From assembly GCF_026151205.1 (NCBI RefSeq), contig NC_087072.1, positions 22,523,603 to 22,587,602 of the forward strand: a stretch of DNA of 64,000 nt, read 5' to 3'. Position numbers and translations under genes: made by a program. Position 1 is the first letter of the stretch. Each line of letters begins with the position of its first letter. Shown here in pieces: positions 57,248-64,000 of the stretch. The notes under the pieces were generated by a model. That model was not told the DNA's origin. It worked only from the letters and a program-made list of their open reading frames with translations, and made no database searches. This DNA comes from Bolinopsis microptera. Lineage: Eukaryota; Ctenophora; Tentaculata; Lobata; Bolinopsidae.

Positions 57248-59111
57248 TCAGTATCCCAATGGATTAAACCACTTTGAGTGTATGATTCTGAGATAGAACT
57301 TTGCCAACACTGGCATCCCAGCCTTGGGGCTGGGATGAATATCATAAAAGCCCCTATTGTCACATTTAGGAAATAATCTCTCGTTTCTGTTTCCATAGCG
57401 GTCTAAGAAAGCCCAAAAAACATCAAGGTAAAACAGTTTATGCCTAGAGCAGCGATCAAAGATCAAATTATTCATAGCACAAACATTACCAGGGATTTTA
57501 TCTTGTCCGTTGGGGTGGACTGGTGGAATAGCTTGTACAAAAACATGTGCATTTGGATAAAGTTTTTTTGCTGTTTTCATAAGGTCACTCACAGGGGTCT
57601 TGAGATGATTGACACCCTGGGTACAGTACCGGATGTCGTTGGCACCGAAGCTTAAGAACAGTTTCTTTACCTGCACAAGAGGGTTCTTTGTATGAAAGGC
57701 CTCAATAGATTTCTGTATAGCTGAGATCTTAAGCCCACCCTTAGCTATGTCGGTGACAGTTTCTTTACCTCTACTGAGGCGATCAGCGTCCAATCGAGCA
57801 GCAAAGGAGTCACCAGCAATAAGAATGATAGACTTCTGGTGTTTTTGAGAGTCTGTGATGGGAGCTTTTGGGGATACTTTATTAGGACTGTCGGATGTAG
57901 GAGAGGGAAGAATAGGAGATGAAGGGGAAGAGGAAGGTGTGGTTAACTTTCTGAAGGAGAGACTATACCTCCAACAAATTTCATTGTCAGAAGGTGCAAC
58001 TCCTGGGGCAATCCTGTGCCTCATGACTTGCTGTGCACCAGGCTTCATGATGTTCAGTGTGCCATTGGTGGCAGGAAGGGTGAAGTCTGCGTTAATCAAC
58101 TCATGGGCTGGCCTTGACCTAGAGGCCCTAGTTGTGCGTTGTTCTACTTGGGTTGTATCGAGCACAAACTCAAGTGACCGTGGAGCCCCTATTGAGTAAG
58201 TGCAAATGGAGCTGGACTGTGATATTATTAGGTCTTCATCGTCTTTATGGAGGCTTAACTTAGCTTGCTCAGAGGCACCTATTAGGTGCGATGGGTGCGG
58301 GATCGCACAATTTACCGTTTTCAATAATTTATTGTTTTCCGCACATTTTGTAATTTTCCGCATATTTCCGCATAATCTAGCATTTTTCGCATAATTTTGA
58401 AATTTTCGCGTTAAGATTTTCGAGTGTAAAAACTAAAATATGTTAAAAGTCGGGCCCTTTTAGGAAAACCGCACAATTCCAGCACAAATTTCGAAAAATC
58501 GCCGCATAATTGCAGGTAAAAATTTACCGCACCTTACCGCACATTTTACCTTTATAGTCGAGTGCGGTACCGCATAATTTCGATTTTTTTACCGCACCTA
58601 ATATGTGCCTCTGAGCTTGCTGAGTGTCGTACCTAGTAACAAGGCAAGCATCCATGTTGTTGGTGGTGGAGGGGAGGTCATTAATAAGTCCCATCAACTT
58701 AAAGATGCTAGGGAAGTTGTTGATGGGAGGTGGCTTGTTAACTATGTTACCAAAGCAGTAGTCTTCTGATGAAGGGCTTAGCCATAGGGTGTGGACTTTT
58801 TTAGATTTGCCTTCGAGATTCATTGAATCTAATTCTTCTGTGATTTTCTTGAATAGATTTTCATCCATTCCAGGGAGGACTGGGACGTGTTCTACAAGCG
58901 CATGTGGGCTATACGAGACATTTTGAACAGTAGTTTCCTTCTTCGTTTTCTTTTCCTTCTTCTTTTCATCTATACGTTCTATTTTAGAAGCAAGCTTTTC
59001 CTCTTTCAAACTGTCCAGGATACTCTGAGTGAGGAGGGTATGCATGTGTTGCTTTACTTCAAGAGATAAGTTTTGCAGTAAGGCGAGGAAGTTGGCGGGC
59101 AGTGTTGGCAT
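57248..59111 (-). pseudogene. LINE B ORF1: coiled coil plus SGNH esterase-like domain, split by a MITE
   Basis: The N-terminal block (59111-58622) begins MPTLPANFLALL and has a Lys/Glu-rich coiled-coil stretch (EKLASKIERIDEKKKEKK). The C-terminal block (58261-57248) has the SGNH motifs: AGDSF (nucleophile Ser), FGANDIR and DIHPSP (Asp and His). Across the MITE the frame is continuous (DTQQA before, KLSLHKDDED after) once one copy of the 8-bp duplication is skipped, so the break came after the LINE inserted. Esterase-type ORF1 proteins are known in CR1-group LINEs; they may help RNP-membrane or RNA interaction. Confidence 0.85.
58270..58613. mobile_element. hAT-like MITE inserted in LINE B ORF1
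   Basis: 344 bp with ends CAGAGGCACCTATTAGGTG and the near-perfect complement CACCTAATATGTGCCTCTG. Exact 8-bp target duplication AGCTTGCT at 58262-58269 and 58614-58621. CAGAG-type ends plus an 8-bp duplication are the hAT signature. The interior is a series of ccgca/ataattt motifs that mirror each other. No ORF. Confidence 0.92.
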
Positions 59112-59565
59112 CTTGTTGTGAAGTGTGGGAGGATCGGGAGGAGACTGGGTGATCCGGATAAGAGATCAACAGCAGGATGTTTCAGTGGCACCGTTGTAAA
59201 CCCTAGCAATCTGGATCTGAAACAGTTAATAGGCCAGAGATTTATAGTTCAGAGTGAAAAATTTTGAATTATAATGAACAGAGGTGTTGTAAAGAACTGT
59301 ATAGCAGAAAAAAGAATGCAATACTTATCTAAAGGTGAAGTAGCTAAAAGGAGTTAATAAATTTCAAACATCACTAGATCTCTAACAATAAAACTAACCT
59401 CGTACCAGACCGCACTAGCCCTGGTAGTACAAGACTACCAGGGCAATAGGAAGAAACGATTGCCACCTCCACAACCTGCCATCTAACTCAGATCCATCAC
59501 ACCCAGGACACCGGCAGACTTTACTCCAACGGATTACTCATCGGTAGCCATGCCTAAAATTATTT

Positions 59566-60830
59566 GTTATATAGTAGTGTTGAAAGTATTAAAATTAATC
59601 GATACAATACTGGAGTTCAGCTTTAAAGATAAATGATTAAGATGTGGTTCCCAACATAGCTGTTCGTCTATTATCACCCCAAGAAATTTTGTACATTGAA
59701 CTTTTTCTAGCTTTTTGCCGTCTATTGAAATCGTTAGATTCCAGTTAAAGGGCCGTGTTCTAGCACAGGTCTGTGTTGCTCTTGACAAACCTGGCTGAAA
59801 ATGCATAAAACAACTTTTCCCTGCATTTATATGTAACTTGTTAGACTCCATATAGTTACTGACCTGTTTCATTACATGATTAGCTTTTTCAAAAGCTTCC
59901 TGTGCTGAACGACCTATCACAAAAATATTTGTATCATCAGCAAACAGGACGAATTCAGCCAAACTTGAGGAGCTCACAATATCATTTATATAAATCAGAA
60001 ATAGTAGAGGTCCTAACACTGACCCCTGGGGTACACCATACTCAACTGAACACTTGTCCGATTTTTCAGTTTGAAAAGAAGTTACTTGGCTACGGTTTGT
60101 TAGATAGCTAGCAAGAGTTTTTAGTGCAATACCTCTTACTCCATAGTGTTCAAGTTTATGCAGGAGTTTATCGTGCTCAATTGTGTCAAATGCTTCACTT
60201 AGATCAATAAATATTCCAATTACATGATTTTTCTGTTCAATCTCATTAAGTATTTTATTGACAGAATAGTTTACGGCATGAGATGTTGAGTGTTGTTTTC
60301 TAAAACCAAATTGTCGATCATAAATCACGTTCATAGCACTGTGGTAATTATATAACCTATTATAAATTATTTTTTCAAGTATTTTGCCAAATATCGGTAA
60401 TGTAGAAACAGGTCGATAGTTATCAAGGCATCGTGAGTCTCCTTTTTTATAAATTGGTGTAATAGAGCCCGTTTTAAGCTTGTTTGGAAAAACCCCATTG
60501 TCCAAGAACCAATTAAAGAATCTAGAGATATGACCAGACAGATAATTTACACTCTTTTTCAAGACTTTAACAGAGATATCACTTGCCTTCCCATTTTCAA
60601 GGCTACCAATAATTTTATCTCTTCCTCGTCACAGGGGCTGAGAAAAAAAGAGTTCACTATTCTTTCTCTGCCCTTGAGGTATTGTTTAAACTTCGTTTTA
60701 TTGAAATTGCCATCAGTTACCGTACGAGATGGTACAGAAGATTGAACTTTTGAATTAAGATTACATAGAGGGTGGATCCAGCTGACTTGCACCCTCGAGA
60801 CGTGGAATTAAAGAGGTCCGATCTCCTGTC
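59566..60830 (-). mobile_element. LINE X, 5' part with the reverse-transcriptase core
   Basis: A minus-strand frame 60562-59567 encodes RT motifs: NYRPVSTLPIFGKILEKI, FGFRKQHSTSHAV, FIDLSEAFDTI, YGVPQGSVLGP, FADDTNIF and KFLGVIIDEQL. A further frame (60792-60559) extends it upstream by about 70 residues (LSPCDEEEIKLLVALKMG) across a frameshift. The element seems to start near 60830 and so is 5'-truncated. It belongs to a different LINE lineage from B (FADD, not YADD). Split from its 3' end by LINE B. Confidence 0.85.
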
Positions 60831-61756
60831 GAGTTTCTTGTCGGTCTTTTTCATGATGATAATGGATGCGGAGTACAGGGGTGAGCGGAGGGGGCCAGGG
60901 TCAGACCCATCGAACCAGACCAGTAACCCTGAAACAAGCTAGGCGGCAGAGAGATGAGTAACATAAATTTATCAGTGATCACGTTAAGCTTAGCAGGAAT
61001 CACCAGTATATTTAAGGCTAGTTAATGAGTTATTAAGTACGATTGTTGATTGAAAATGAATAAAGTATATCGAAACGTCAATTGTTTTGGATGAGATGTA
61101 AAATGGAGTGAATGTGCAATGAGGGGGAAGGGGCTGGGGTAAGGATCGGAGGGGTTGGGGTAAGGAAGGGCTATCAATTCAAATTCAATGTAAATTCTCA
61201 ACTTTATCAATAAACAATCCCACACAAATATTAGTTAGAATCTCAAATCTGAATGAATGTACACATATAAAGGGTAAATAGTCTGCGGGTATTATATATA
61301 ATTTTTTTTTTATAAAAAAAATGTGTGGGGAGGCAGATAGCAGGGGAAAAAATGGGGAGAGGGATTTTGCAAGACTGCAGGTGGATATCTTTACTTTTTA
61401 GATTTCCTGATATCTGGATATTATCCGGTTGGAAGAGACAAGGACAAGTGAAACAAGGAAGTTAGGAGTAAGGGCAAATTTTCGGCGTCAACGCCATCTT
61501 CAGGCTAAAATTGTTATAAATGTTAGTATATAATAAATGCTTCTATACTAGTTCAAATGCTAAATTAAAATTACACACACTGAATACAGTGCAGGTTACA
61601 TCATAGTTTTAAACTATTTTCACAACTACAATTAAATACATTTGTTGAGTTCAGGGATAGCATGTACTAGTACCCCCAAAGGGGAGACGTGAGTTATTTG
61701 TTGCTTGATTTGTTTGCTGTGCTGTCTTTATTAGCTGTGTGTTGCTTGGCTGTGCG
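60831..61756. other. Region between LINE X and the AlkB-type LINE; includes the latter's 5' UTR
   Basis: No coding frame supported. The sequence before 61757 is probably the 5' UTR of the retrotransposon that follows; its 5' boundary is not clear. A short inverted motif (ggcgtcaacgcc) lies at about 61479. Confidence 0.4.
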
Positions 61757-63838
61757 ATGTCAGGTACAGGTATAAAAACACCATCTACCGGAAATAGACG
61801 TGGCTCTGTGACAGGAACAGGGCCAACCGCTAAAAAAGAGCATCATAATGTTGATAAATGCCCATGCAGCCAATCGAATGCTGGAAGCTTCAAGCTAATA
61901 TGCACAGGTTGCAAACAGAACTGGCATGCTGATTGTCTGGGACTAAAGGGTATCACGAAGCCGTCAATAATGAAGCTGGAAAAGTGGTTATGTCCATTTT
62001 GCTACGTTGCACCCGTACCAACCACCATCAAAGATATCTCATACGACAACTTCTGCTACAAATGTCGGAACACCTTGAGTCTACAACAGTCCAATAGTGA
62101 TTATGAGGTGCACTCTGCCTGTCAGAATCTCAAGGACATAGAAACCTTGACGAAATCACTATCAACAATTGATGTTGATAAAATGAAAGAGTCGATCCAG
62201 GTGATCCAAAACCTCGACCTTCACATGCAACACCTGCTAACCAATGAACATGGTTTGAAAGACCATCAAAACCGAGTCAAAAACATAGAAGACCATTGTA
62301 AAGGAGAACTAAGTGAAGATGTAAGTGGTGTCAAAAAGGCTATTAAAGACCTTCAGAAACAAATCACAGATCTTTCCACCAAAGGTCTTGTCTCATCTAC
62401 TGCTCCCAAGCTTGACACTGAGAAATTGATACATGATATCATAGACCAGCTTGATGAACATACTCGGCAGGAACCGCATATTTCTCTTGAACTGAAGGAA
62501 ATCAAGCAGTCTCTAGACCAACTATCTTCCCAACAGACGACAATTCCTCATGATCAGCCATCATCTGGTTCTGCATTAAATGATAAGCACCTTCTATCAA
62601 AGACCACCTTTAAACACGAGGAAAAACCTGTGGTAGACACCGTGGAAGAATTCATCAACAGTGATGCTGAATCAGACCTTCTCCAATACTGCGAATCTCT
62701 TCAGTTCAGTCAGGAGAATGGGCATTCAGTATGTTCTTTTGGAGAGAAGTACAAGTATAGCGGATCCAGAGATGAGAATAAGAAAACCGTGGAGATCCCT
62801 GATAAAATTGCTGCACTTGTCCTGAAAATCAATGAGGAGTTCTGTGCAGAAGGAAACCCTGTAATGAATAGCGTGTTGATCAACCGCTATGAAGAAGGCG
62901 AGGGTTATCTGCCTGAACATTCAGACAATGAACCGGTGATACATCCAGAGTCTAGCATATTGACTCTTTCCATTGGAGGTGAATGCAAAGTCCTCTTCAC
63001 TGAAATGAACAACCCAGTTCACACGCACAAGTGTACTCCAAGATCAGTTTACAGGATGACCAGAAGGAGTCAGGCTCACTACAAGCACTCTATCCAGAAG
63101 GGGTCAGTCACTGGTGCAGTACGATATAGTTTCACCTTCAGATCATTAGATGGAAAGAATCGTGCCAGTACTTGTATCTTCTCTGATTCAAATGGAGCAG
63201 GTATGAAATTTGGAGAGGATCACAAAAGGAGCTTTGGTAAGTGGCTGCCTGGTCGGAATGTTTGGACTCCTACAATAGATGACATTAACCCATATCTTGC
63301 ATGTGGATACAAGAACATTGTTATTATGTGTGGTATAAATGATGTTAGAAGACCATCTGTTAAATCTCAGCGTGAAATTTTTGCTATATTTAGTCATCTA
63401 GAATTCAAGATTGAGCAAATTCAAGAGGCCAATCCAACTGCCCAAGTATTTCTTTGTCCTCTTTTACCAACTCGAAATGCTGATTTAAATAGGAAAGTTC
63501 TTTACTTTATAGAGCTTATTCGTCGTGAGCTACTTCCCAAAAACTTTGGTGTCCAGTTCGTTGATGGCTTTGATGACTTCCTGGATAATAACACTGGCTT
63601 ACTTTGCCTAACCTTGTCCAGGGAGTTTGACAAATATGGCCGGACGGATTACCTGCACCTTAATTGGAAGGGAGTGGCCAAACTTGCTACTTTAATCCGT
63701 AATACTGTCCTCGTTAGGATGCATGGAGGGACTGATAGGAGGAAGAGAGGGAGGAGGGACGGTAAGGTTGGTTCAACACTTTATTCTCATGCCGCCGGAG
63801 GACAGCCTCATGTTGAAGGCTATCAGCCTCCAACATGA
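61757..63838 (+). CDS. LINE ORF1 protein with PHD finger, coiled coil, AlkB-type dioxygenase and SGNH hydrolase domains
   Basis: 693 residues from ATG 61757; the frame is open a few codons upstream without another ATG. Residues ~35-85: PHD-type finger (CPC, ICTGCKQNWHADC, LCPFC), with an extra Cys/His set to ~122 (YKCRN, HSAC). Residues ~125-215: heptad-like helix. Residues ~295-465: AlkB-family fold with iron ligands H388 and D390 (PEHSD), H444 (YKHSI), and the 2-oxoglutarate/substrate motif RYSFTFR (R456, R462), which closely matches the RYNLTFR motif of bacterial AlkB. Residues ~475-650: SGNH hydrolase (FSDSN, CGINDVRR, DYLHL with the Asp/His pair). All catalytic positions are intact. AlkB enzymes remove alkyl groups from nucleic-acid bases by oxidation, so the element may repair or modify its own RNA (inference). 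The stop overlaps the next ORF's start (ATGA at 63835-63838), marking it as ORF1 of a two-ORF LINE. Confidence 0.88.
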   Translation: MSGTGIKTPSTGNRRGSVTGTGPTAKKEHHNVDKCPCSQSNAGSFKLICTGCKQNWHADCLGLKGITKPSIMKLEKWLCPFCYVAPVPTTIKDISYDNFCYKCRNTLSLQQSNSDYEVHSACQNLKDIETLTKSLSTIDVDKMKESIQVIQNLDLHMQHLLTNEHGLKDHQNRVKNIEDHCKGELSEDVSGVKKAIKDLQKQITDLSTKGLVSSTAPKLDTEKLIHDIIDQLDEHTRQEPHISLELKEIKQSLDQLSSQQTTIPHDQPSSGSALNDKHLLSKTTFKHEEKPVVDTVEEFINSDAESDLLQYCESLQFSQENGHSVCSFGEKYKYSGSRDENKKTVEIPDKIAALVLKINEEFCAEGNPVMNSVLINRYEEGEGYLPEHSDNEPVIHPESSILTLSIGGECKVLFTEMNNPVHTHKCTPRSVYRMTRRSQAHYKHSIQKGSVTGAVRYSFTFRSLDGKNRASTCIFSDSNGAGMKFGEDHKRSFGKWLPGRNVWTPTIDDINPYLACGYKNIVIMCGINDVRRPSVKSQREIFAIFSHLEFKIEQIQEANPTAQVFLCPLLPTRNADLNRKVLYFIELIRRELLPKNFGVQFVDGFDDFLDNNTGLLCLTLSREFDKYGRTDYLHLNWKGVAKLATLIRNTVLVRMHGGTDRRKRGRRDGKVGSTLYSHAAGGQPHVEGYQPPT

Positions 63839-64000
63839 ATGTTCTTAAAAAAGAGGTCTGTGCCCACTGTTTAAAAAGTATCTATTTAGGTCAATCTATA
63901 TTTGAATGCTACAACTGTAACTGTCCCATTCACTCTAGATGCTATAACACCAGTGACAAACAAAATCAAAAAGTTGACTTGTACTGCAATAATTGTCTCC
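63835..64000 (+). CDS. ORF2 start of the AlkB-type LINE (zinc finger), cut by the window end
   Basis: Begins MNVLKKEVCAHCLKSIYLG at the ATG that overlaps the ORF1 stop by four bases, a layout typical of termination-reinitiation in LINEs. The first 55 residues form a PHD/RING-like Cys-His cluster: CAHC, CYNCNC, HSRC, YCNNC. Endonuclease and reverse transcriptase are expected to follow beyond the window. Partial. Confidence 0.75.
   Translation, partial: MNVLKKEVCAHCLKSIYLGQSIFECYNCNCPIHSRCYNTSDKQNQKVDLYCNNCL

Follow-up and report, generated by a model that had tools for sequence, protein, structure and literature searches.

An AlkB-type dioxygenase domain within ORF1 of a recently active LINE from the ctenophore Bolinopsis microptera

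The 64,000-nucleotide window of the Bolinopsis microptera genome analysed here (contig NC_087072.1, positions 22,523,603 to 22,587,602) runs at its 3' end into a long interspersed nuclear element (LINE) whose first open reading frame (ORF1) encodes an intact, catalytically complete-looking dioxygenase domain of the ALKBH2/3 type. The domain is under selection, and the LINE has recently been active. Pfam matches follow one another along the 693 residues of ORF1 in the order PHD, 2OG-FeII_Oxy_2 and Lipase_GDSL_2. A preliminary description of the same DNA had proposed that a LINE ORF1 joins an AlkB domain, to all appearances intact, to a PHD finger and an SGNH hydrolase in one uninterrupted frame, and this combination is borne out. 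Relatives of this enzyme are best known for taking methyl lesions off RNA and DNA. We think it somewhat probable that the ORF1 protein (ORF1p) includes an active, ALKBH3-like oxidative dealkylase that belongs permanently to the machinery by which the element replicates. The substrate would resemble 1-methyladenine (m1A) or 3-methylcytosine (m3C), and the benefit to the element would be a readable template.

The AlkB assignment begins with a match to 2OG-FeII_Oxy_2 (PF13532) over residues 328-462, scoring 55.9 bits (E 8.6e-15) against a Pfam cut-off of 31.2. Failure of the protein to match the AlkB family, which the preliminary description had named as grounds for abandoning its proposal, thus did not occur. 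The iron triad (H388, D390 and H444) and the 2-oxoglutarate (2OG) motif R456-Y-S-F-T-F-R462 can be read off the sequence as described earlier, and by hidden Markov model (HMM), triad and motif the domain belongs to the AlkB family, with oxidative dealkylation of bases as its predicted activity. A profile built from 12 transposable element (TE) AlkB domains matched ALKBH3 in the PDB with 103 bits, ALKBH2 with 94, ALKBH8 with 57 and Escherichia coli AlkB with 52, and at the low end ALKBH5 with 22, ALKBH6 with 20 and ALKBH1 with 18-20. An AlphaFold model of ORF1 residues 288-693, made from a 13-sequence alignment, retrieved ALKBH6, ALKBH2 and ALKBH3 structures in Foldseek, with target template modelling scores of about 0.61-0.72 in the leading rows.

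The AlkB domains of the 12 aligned TE families are 23-50% identical to the window domain and share 14 invariant columns, including HxDxE, the distal His and RxSxTxR. Invariance of HxD and Rx[SN]xTxR is partly by construction, because these patterns were used to cut out the domains, although every fetched family with a Pfam AlkB match passed them. The positions free of the extraction patterns are the Glu, the distal His, a Gln, a Gly, a Tyr and the choice of Ser over Asn. The Glu (E392 in the window ORF1) aligns with D135 of AlkB, a residue close to N6 of the m1A base (PMC7968990, as excerpted). Human ALKBH3 and ALKBH2 are the best PDB profile matches, the neighbours in the domain tree and of the same fold by Foldseek. 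The TE domains differ from them in being embedded in ORF1 with an SGNH domain and sometimes a PHD finger, and in reading RxSxTxR rather than RxNxTxR in all 12 families. For this Ser we treat the TE AlkB as a relative of the ALKBH3/ALKBH2 subgroup and do not file it as ALKBH3.

The tree of 21 AlkB domains, in which ALKBH2 and ALKBH3 were the only references and other subgroups thus lay outside the comparison, places 16 TE domains on one side and the host and human ALKBH2/3 domains on the other (support 84/85, not starred). Fourteen TE domains, the AlkB-first type described below being excluded, form a starred group (99/97) with a pair of Helitron domains inside it. The host-gene-like domains fall with the references: locus L001 groups with ALKBH2 (99/97) and L002/L003 with ALKBH3 (80/80), to which the TE domains are adjacent.

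These relationships bear on what the enzyme might do. The preliminary description had left two uses open to the element, repair of its own template or erasure of host methyl marks. Because ALKBH3 and ALKBH2 score far above ALKBH5 in the profile search, template repair is favoured; that the domain is a dealkylase at all is still a prediction. It is unlikely, in our assessment, that the domain instead erases a regulatory N6-methyladenosine (m6A), N6,2'-O-dimethyladenosine (m6Am) or m1A mark from the element's own mRNA and so escapes host epitranscriptomic control, as has been proposed for an orchid Ty3/Gypsy AlkB. The change of Asn to Ser in 12 of 12 families, a departure from ALKBH2/3, would suit such an eraser, but the profile lies far from the m6A eraser ALKBH5. 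Moreover, all 12 families keep an acidic residue where AlkB has D135, and it is the D135I exchange that gives AlkB m6A activity (PMC7968990, same excerpts).

AlkB-bearing copies are numerous in the genome assembly searched, which comprises 264.65 Mb in 232 contigs, 13 of them chromosome-sized and making up 97.5% of the sequence. At least 151 AlkB matches were found with PF13532, a lower bound from scoring 150 of 587 first-look candidates. All listed matches exceed the Pfam cut-off and all but the last lack a stop inside the match; the best-scoring candidates were favoured, and with them intact ones. With ORF1 as query there are at least 64 matches (64 of 1142 candidates scored). Nine of these are full-length at 94-100% identity, eight without an inner stop and one with a single stop, and 35 belong to a sister family at 44-46% identity with no inner stop in any. 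The genome search suggested in the preliminary description thus yielded many families with AlkB. Contamination or misassembly as the source of the element is rejected, given the many copies on many contigs.

The AlkB domain evolves under purifying selection. The ratio of nonsynonymous to synonymous substitution rates (dN/dS) is 0.051, 0.065, 0.069, 0.112, 0.129, 0.182 and 0.197 in seven of 13 pairs, which share members and are not independent, and Fisher tests on six AlkB pairs gave p values from 2e-28 to 7e-5. ORF2 ratios, in part from partial sequences, span 0.063-0.225 in seven pairs, with three further pairs saturated; for the window family they cover the first ~500 residues, without the reverse transcriptase (RT). 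Selection on AlkB is therefore about as strong as on ORF2, contrary to the neutral decay that would have told against the earlier proposal, and a plain pseudogene is rejected on the same ground. Synonymous change between L009 and L013 is about three times higher in AlkB than in its flanks (dS 0.46 versus 0.17 and 0.13), a hint of recombination inside ORF1, although such single-pair values are rough. Locus L023, with eight stops, was considered as a neutral control. Its dN/dS against the window copy is 0.60 in AlkB (p 0.09) and 0.63 in the SGNH part, and against L013 0.165 and 0.575, respectively. It was dropped because all its stops lie at or beyond residue 458, where divergence jumps in a way that looks like a frame shift.

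That a host ALKBH gene was captured by chance, or is decaying after capture, without serving the element is scarcely credible. The genome does contain possible sources, the ALKBH2-like domain of L001 and the ALKBH3-like domains of L002 and L003. Against such a capture stand the number of AlkB matches, the purifying selection on the domain and the recurrence of the module in LINE lineages that have diverged from one another, as well as in a Helitron frame.

The element itself is a young, apparently complete non-LTR (long terminal repeat) retrotransposon (Table 1). The ATG of ORF2 (63835-63837) overlaps the ORF1 stop as ATGA (63835-63838), as the preliminary description had it, whereas the zinc finger it noted in ORF2 appears only as an N-terminal C1_1 match under the cut-off (16.8 bits). 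About 55 codons of ORF2 lie inside the window. The full frame of 1127 residues reaches beyond it and matches RVT_1 with 124.5 bits, the RT and endonuclease having been read in L009. Its endonuclease match, Exo_endo_phos_2, is under the cut-off at 21.4 bits and exceeds it in L047 and L051. With an endonuclease and an RT in ORF2, the element is of the non-LTR (LINE) class. Recent activity is evident from two copies (L013 and L015) whose ORF1s are identical over the 2064 bases compared and whose flanks are unrelated. The earlier extent, 61757 to 64000, gave the start of ORF1 correctly but not that of the element, which begins ~150 bases further 5', at 61607, with a spliced-leader exon.

Table 1. 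Parts of the AlkB-bearing LINE, in window coordinates
Feature	Position	Strand	Basis or remark
Spliced-leader exon, 5' end of element	61607..61649	+	SL2 type, 43 nt, matching the SL2 RNA gene units read but for 1 base
5' untranslated region	61650..61756	+	Common to other family copies, by-eye comparison with 8 others
ORF1, 693 aa, stop included	61757..63838	+	Single open frame, ATG 61757, TGA 63836-63838
PHD finger, residues 35-82	61859..62002	+	Pfam PHD, 25.8 bits; C4HC3 pattern by eye
AlkB-type 2OG-Fe(II) dioxygenase core, residues 328-462	62738..63142	+	Pfam, alignment, PDB profile search, AlphaFold/Foldseek
SGNH hydrolase (esterase), residues ~473-637	63173..63667	+	Pfam under cut-off; PDB profile matches including 4c1b; conserved S/GxN/H
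ORF2, first 166 bases in window, N-terminal zinc finger	63835..64000	+	Continues to ~window coordinate 67218, stop included

The SGNH part of ORF1 is supported at the level of sequence. Lipase_GDSL_2 matches residues 512-639 with 26.6 bits (E 9.6e-6) and falls short of its cut-off of 32.9. It is likewise under the cut-off in every other ORF1 where it was reported, with no match at E 0.05 in L044, L047, L048 and L053. The catalytic residues S478, G499, N528, D631 and H634 are in place, as first described; the Ser, the GxN and the His are invariant in 13 sequences, and the Asp as well in the six PHD-type families. A six-family SGNH profile retrieved SGNH enzymes from the PDB, led by 2hsj (E 1.6e-5) and including the esterase of a zebrafish LINE ORF1p (4c1b, E 1.2e-4). 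The SGNH half does not appear among the best 50 Foldseek rows of the AlphaFold model.

Pfam reports no RRM or CCHC domain in the window ORF1, in nine other ORF1s or in four ORF1-bearing frames (L040, L044, L045 and L054; E up to 0.05). This could indicate that the main task of the AlkB fold is to bind single-stranded nucleic acid in place of RRM or zinc knuckles, with catalysis secondary or lost, the more so since esterase-type ORF1ps are described, in the available part of one study, as having no defined RNA-binding domains (PMC3905857). We hold this rather unlikely. None of the 12 diverged families has lost the iron triad, the 2OG Arg motif or the base-contact Glu, with the caveat of the extraction patterns given above, and a mere binder need not keep them.

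The PHD match exceeds the Pfam cut-off of 24, in agreement with the first reading of a PHD finger, and PHD domains of other proteins recognize modified histones (PMC4120745, in part). The PHD finger might therefore read histone tails while the dioxygenase strips marks from DNA (N6-methyladenine or alkyl groups), or marks of another kind, where the element inserts or where copies lie silenced. That such a chromatin role explains the domain is improbable: six AlkB ORF1s have no PHD match (L042, L045, L047, L051, L052 and L054), so AlkB is not dependent on PHD, and the PHD match of L051 (21.2 bits, under the cut-off) lies in ORF2 instead.

Across the genome the AlkB domain occurs in four layouts. 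The first, PHD-AlkB-SGNH followed by ORF2, is that of the window, L039, L046/L049, L048, L050 and L053/L044. The PHD match is under the cut-off in L046, L048, L050 and L053; none was reported in L039, where the same Cys/His pattern can be seen by eye. The second, AlkB-SGNH in an ORF1 without a PHD match, is found in L042, L045, L051, L052 and L054. AlkB comes first in L041, L043 and L047, with SGNH-like blocks recognized at the end by eye only. The fourth is a giant frame with SGNH, AlkB, DUF6570 and Helitron_like_N in L040 (2883-9899, + strand), where a 2339-residue stretch matches PF14214 (Helitron_like_N) with 80.0 bits, AlkB with 76.3 and Lipase_GDSL_2 with 26.8 (under the cut-off). By its Helitron_like_N part this frame is of Helitron type. 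L005, seen in part (SGNH-like plus AlkB), is a second copy of this frame. Not all copies are complete: similarity of L012 to the window copy stops ~760 bases into ORF2, and ORF2 of L053 is broken into two frames.

A tree of 12 ORF2 RTs, all from loci of this genome, resolves four lineages, the AlkB-first type being very distant and subject to a long-branch warning. Taken together, the AlkB and RT trees indicate that the module either has long been present in several LINE lineages or was passed from one to another. L054 and L042 have ORF2s that are 94-100% identical per 150 bases (98% in protein) and ORF1s that are only 49-78% identical, with the step falling at the start of ORF2. In this case ORF1 was swapped as a block, in keeping with a spread of the AlkB+SGNH module.

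Copies of the window family start with one of two leaders, which directly follow unrelated flanks. SL2 leads the window copy. The other leader, SL1, also starts L039, with no mismatch over 36 bases to the window-family form. On L054/L007 and L047 it has three mismatches to that form, by which it equals the exon of a gene array on C3, and on L041 it has six mismatches and different first bases. In the RT tree, L054 and L047 are remote from the window element. Leaders were found in 13 of 29 window-family loci (L010-L038) and, among the other LINE loci fetched, in L007/L054, L039, L041 and L047, with none in the rest within the bases examined.

Both leaders trace to tandem arrays of spliced-leader (SL) RNA genes (loci L057 and L058). 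The SL1 array on C3 (G000:C3:13511056-13533412) has at least 36 units, mostly in steps of 591 bases, and the SL2 array on C5 (C5:1039671-1050567) at least 20 exact units plus at least two with one mismatch, mostly in steps of 428 bases. The units read comprise the exon, a GTAAG donor, stem-loops and an Sm-like site (by eye), and give a sub-threshold match to SmY RNA (26 bits against a cut-off of 39). Compared with the C3 units read, SL1 as found in the window family has three of 41 bases different. Patterns made from the leaders match the genome 948 and 151 times, genes and element copies together, and never in reversed controls. As expected of spliced leaders, the same leader thus stands on unrelated RNAs and has RNA genes with an exon, GT donor and Sm site, all read from genomic copies alone. 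A promoter passed between elements was considered for the 5' leader and rejected, since the SL RNA gene arrays explain it better.

L013 carries SL2 and L015 carries SL1. Because their ORF1s are identical, the leader appears to have been added anew before each jump, as in trans-splicing; the L013 leader is joined five bases downstream of the others, past a second AG. Ctenophores trans-splice, and the LINE mRNAs appear, from their genomic copies, to have been trans-spliced before being copied. The spliced-leader 5' ends would then be a natural DNA record of the leader that each transcript received before copying.

The dealkylase reading envisages the following cycle. The host spliced leader would be trans-spliced onto the element transcript, as the genomic copies suggest, and one mRNA would yield both ORF1 and ORF2, the latter probably by reinitiation at the ATGA overlap. 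ORF1p, like known LINE ORF1 proteins, would multimerize and coat its own RNA in cis. With Fe(II), O2 and 2-oxoglutarate, the AlkB domain would remove base adducts, m1A and m3C among them, that impede the RT, and so allow full-length copies. By analogy with proposals made for other CR1/L2 elements, the SGNH and PHD domains may help the ribonucleoprotein to assemble at membranes and to make contact with chromatin. The same module has been drawn in by Helitrons, whose cycle includes single-stranded DNA. The chemistry is plausible in that m1A and m3C are the preferred substrates of wild-type AlkB, and reverse transcriptase is disrupted by m1A; laboratories treat RNA with AlkB to rid it of such bases ahead of sequencing (PMC7968990, as excerpted). 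If this is true, an element with an ALKBH3-like enzyme in its RNA-coating protein has reached the same fix, and template damage or modification becomes a testable limit on retrotransposition.

Several points weigh against a working dealkylase of this kind in a complete LINE. The top Foldseek match is ALKBH6 and not ALKBH3, from a model of middling confidence (mean predicted local distance difference test score 75.3, predicted template modelling score 0.56). All 12 TE families have Ser at a position of the 2OG motif that is Asn in the ALKBH2 and ALKBH3 chains compared, and this swap could alter cofactor binding or substrate. Ser at this position serves 2OG binding in FTO. The AlkB ratio between L013 and L017 is higher than in the other pairs, at 0.435 on eight changes, and of the remaining AlkB pairs four of 13 are saturated and one of 13 is without change, so that its ratio is undefined. 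A clean neutral control for the AlkB ratios was not obtained, and selection tells that a domain is used but not what for. No target-site duplication was found, in that the downstream stretch examined contains no exact repeat of eight or more bases of the 5' flank. Finally, AlkB is reported to tolerate replacement of its R210 (PMC7968990, in the part available), which makes the second Arg of the motif weaker evidence for catalysis.

In their layout the elements resemble CR1/L2 LINEs of the Jockey superfamily, which have two ORFs, an ORF2 with endonuclease and RT, and PHD and SGNH esterase among their ORF1 domains; the comparison is based on ORF layout and domains. Unlike the window element, the CR1/L2 ORF1 types include no AlkB or dioxygenase in the available portion of that survey, whose table assigns PHD and esterase to different subgroups and esterase to two vertebrate ones only (PMC4120745). 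The ORF1p of zebrafish ZfL2-1 (4c1b) has the same catalytic S, G, N, D and H as the window SGNH domain, but is described in the excerpted text as a coiled coil, an arginine-rich motif and an esterase, with no AlkB or PHD (PMC3905857). The closest precedent for a retrotransposon-encoded AlkB is the Ty3/Gypsy element of the orchid Phalaenopsis, whose 2-ODD AlkB ORF is a demethylase in vitro; that element has LTRs, carries AlkB as an additional ORF and is described, as far as the source is available, near m6A-demethylating AlkBs (PMC9289625). The window element is by contrast non-LTR, with an AlkB of ALKBH2/3 type fused into ORF1 with SGNH and found in many families. Replicases and polyproteins of plant RNA viruses, for example Grapevine virus T and Grapevine berry inner necrosis virus, are also among the Foldseek rows, presumably through their AlkB part. 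The AlkB domains of these viruses provide self-encoded RNA repair, but the viruses bear RNA-dependent RNA polymerases and are not retroelements.

Among the matches listed from the open-access literature, with closed-access papers and Repbase outside its scope, no title or opening of an abstract described AlkB in a LINE or Helitron, and the orchid element was the only case of a transposon-encoded AlkB. We therefore regard AlkB in LINEs, provisionally, as unreported. A broader proposal is that AlkB+SGNH constitutes an exchangeable 'template care' module of mobile elements, present in four LINE RT lineages and in Helitrons and selected for lesion removal on single-stranded intermediates, in LINEs that re-acquire host spliced leaders at each jump. 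We put this close to evenly balanced, leaning slightly towards doubt; if true, these would be the first non-LTR retrotransposons known to have their own nucleic-acid dealkylase.

Some further loci deserve mention. L045 (5053-6705, - strand) combines a 551-residue AlkB+SGNH ORF1 with an ORF2 of which, in the single copy read, only a short stub is left. At least 18 PF13532 matches lie in frames of 551-552 residues, perhaps an ORF1-only family, which we take to be possibly HAL1-like. In L044 (3-3020, + strand) AlkB-SGNH stands in frame behind a Penelope-like RT seen by eye, Pfam reporting only AlkB; this is probably a 5'-truncated insertion. L055 (1955-2842 and 3554-4411, + strand) encodes an ALKBH3-like domain with the motif RLNLTFR ~700 bases 5' of an SGNH-like frame in the same direction (under the cut-off), a possible donor or domesticated relic. 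Outside this genome, phage records gave no match, and the five pattern-matching stretches in viral contigs include no relative.

The window also contains nested LINE pieces on the opposite strand (58524-60600). An ORF2 fragment of the L053/L044 family is interrupted there at ~59590 by another SL1-led 5' fragment, whose leader occupies 59554-59590 (- strand) and whose 195-residue frame resembles by eye the start of an AlkB ORF1. On the 3' side of the element, at L009 position 8338 (- strand; ~window coordinate 69335), an SL1 leader precedes sequence that lacks any long frame and may be the processed copy of some host transcript.

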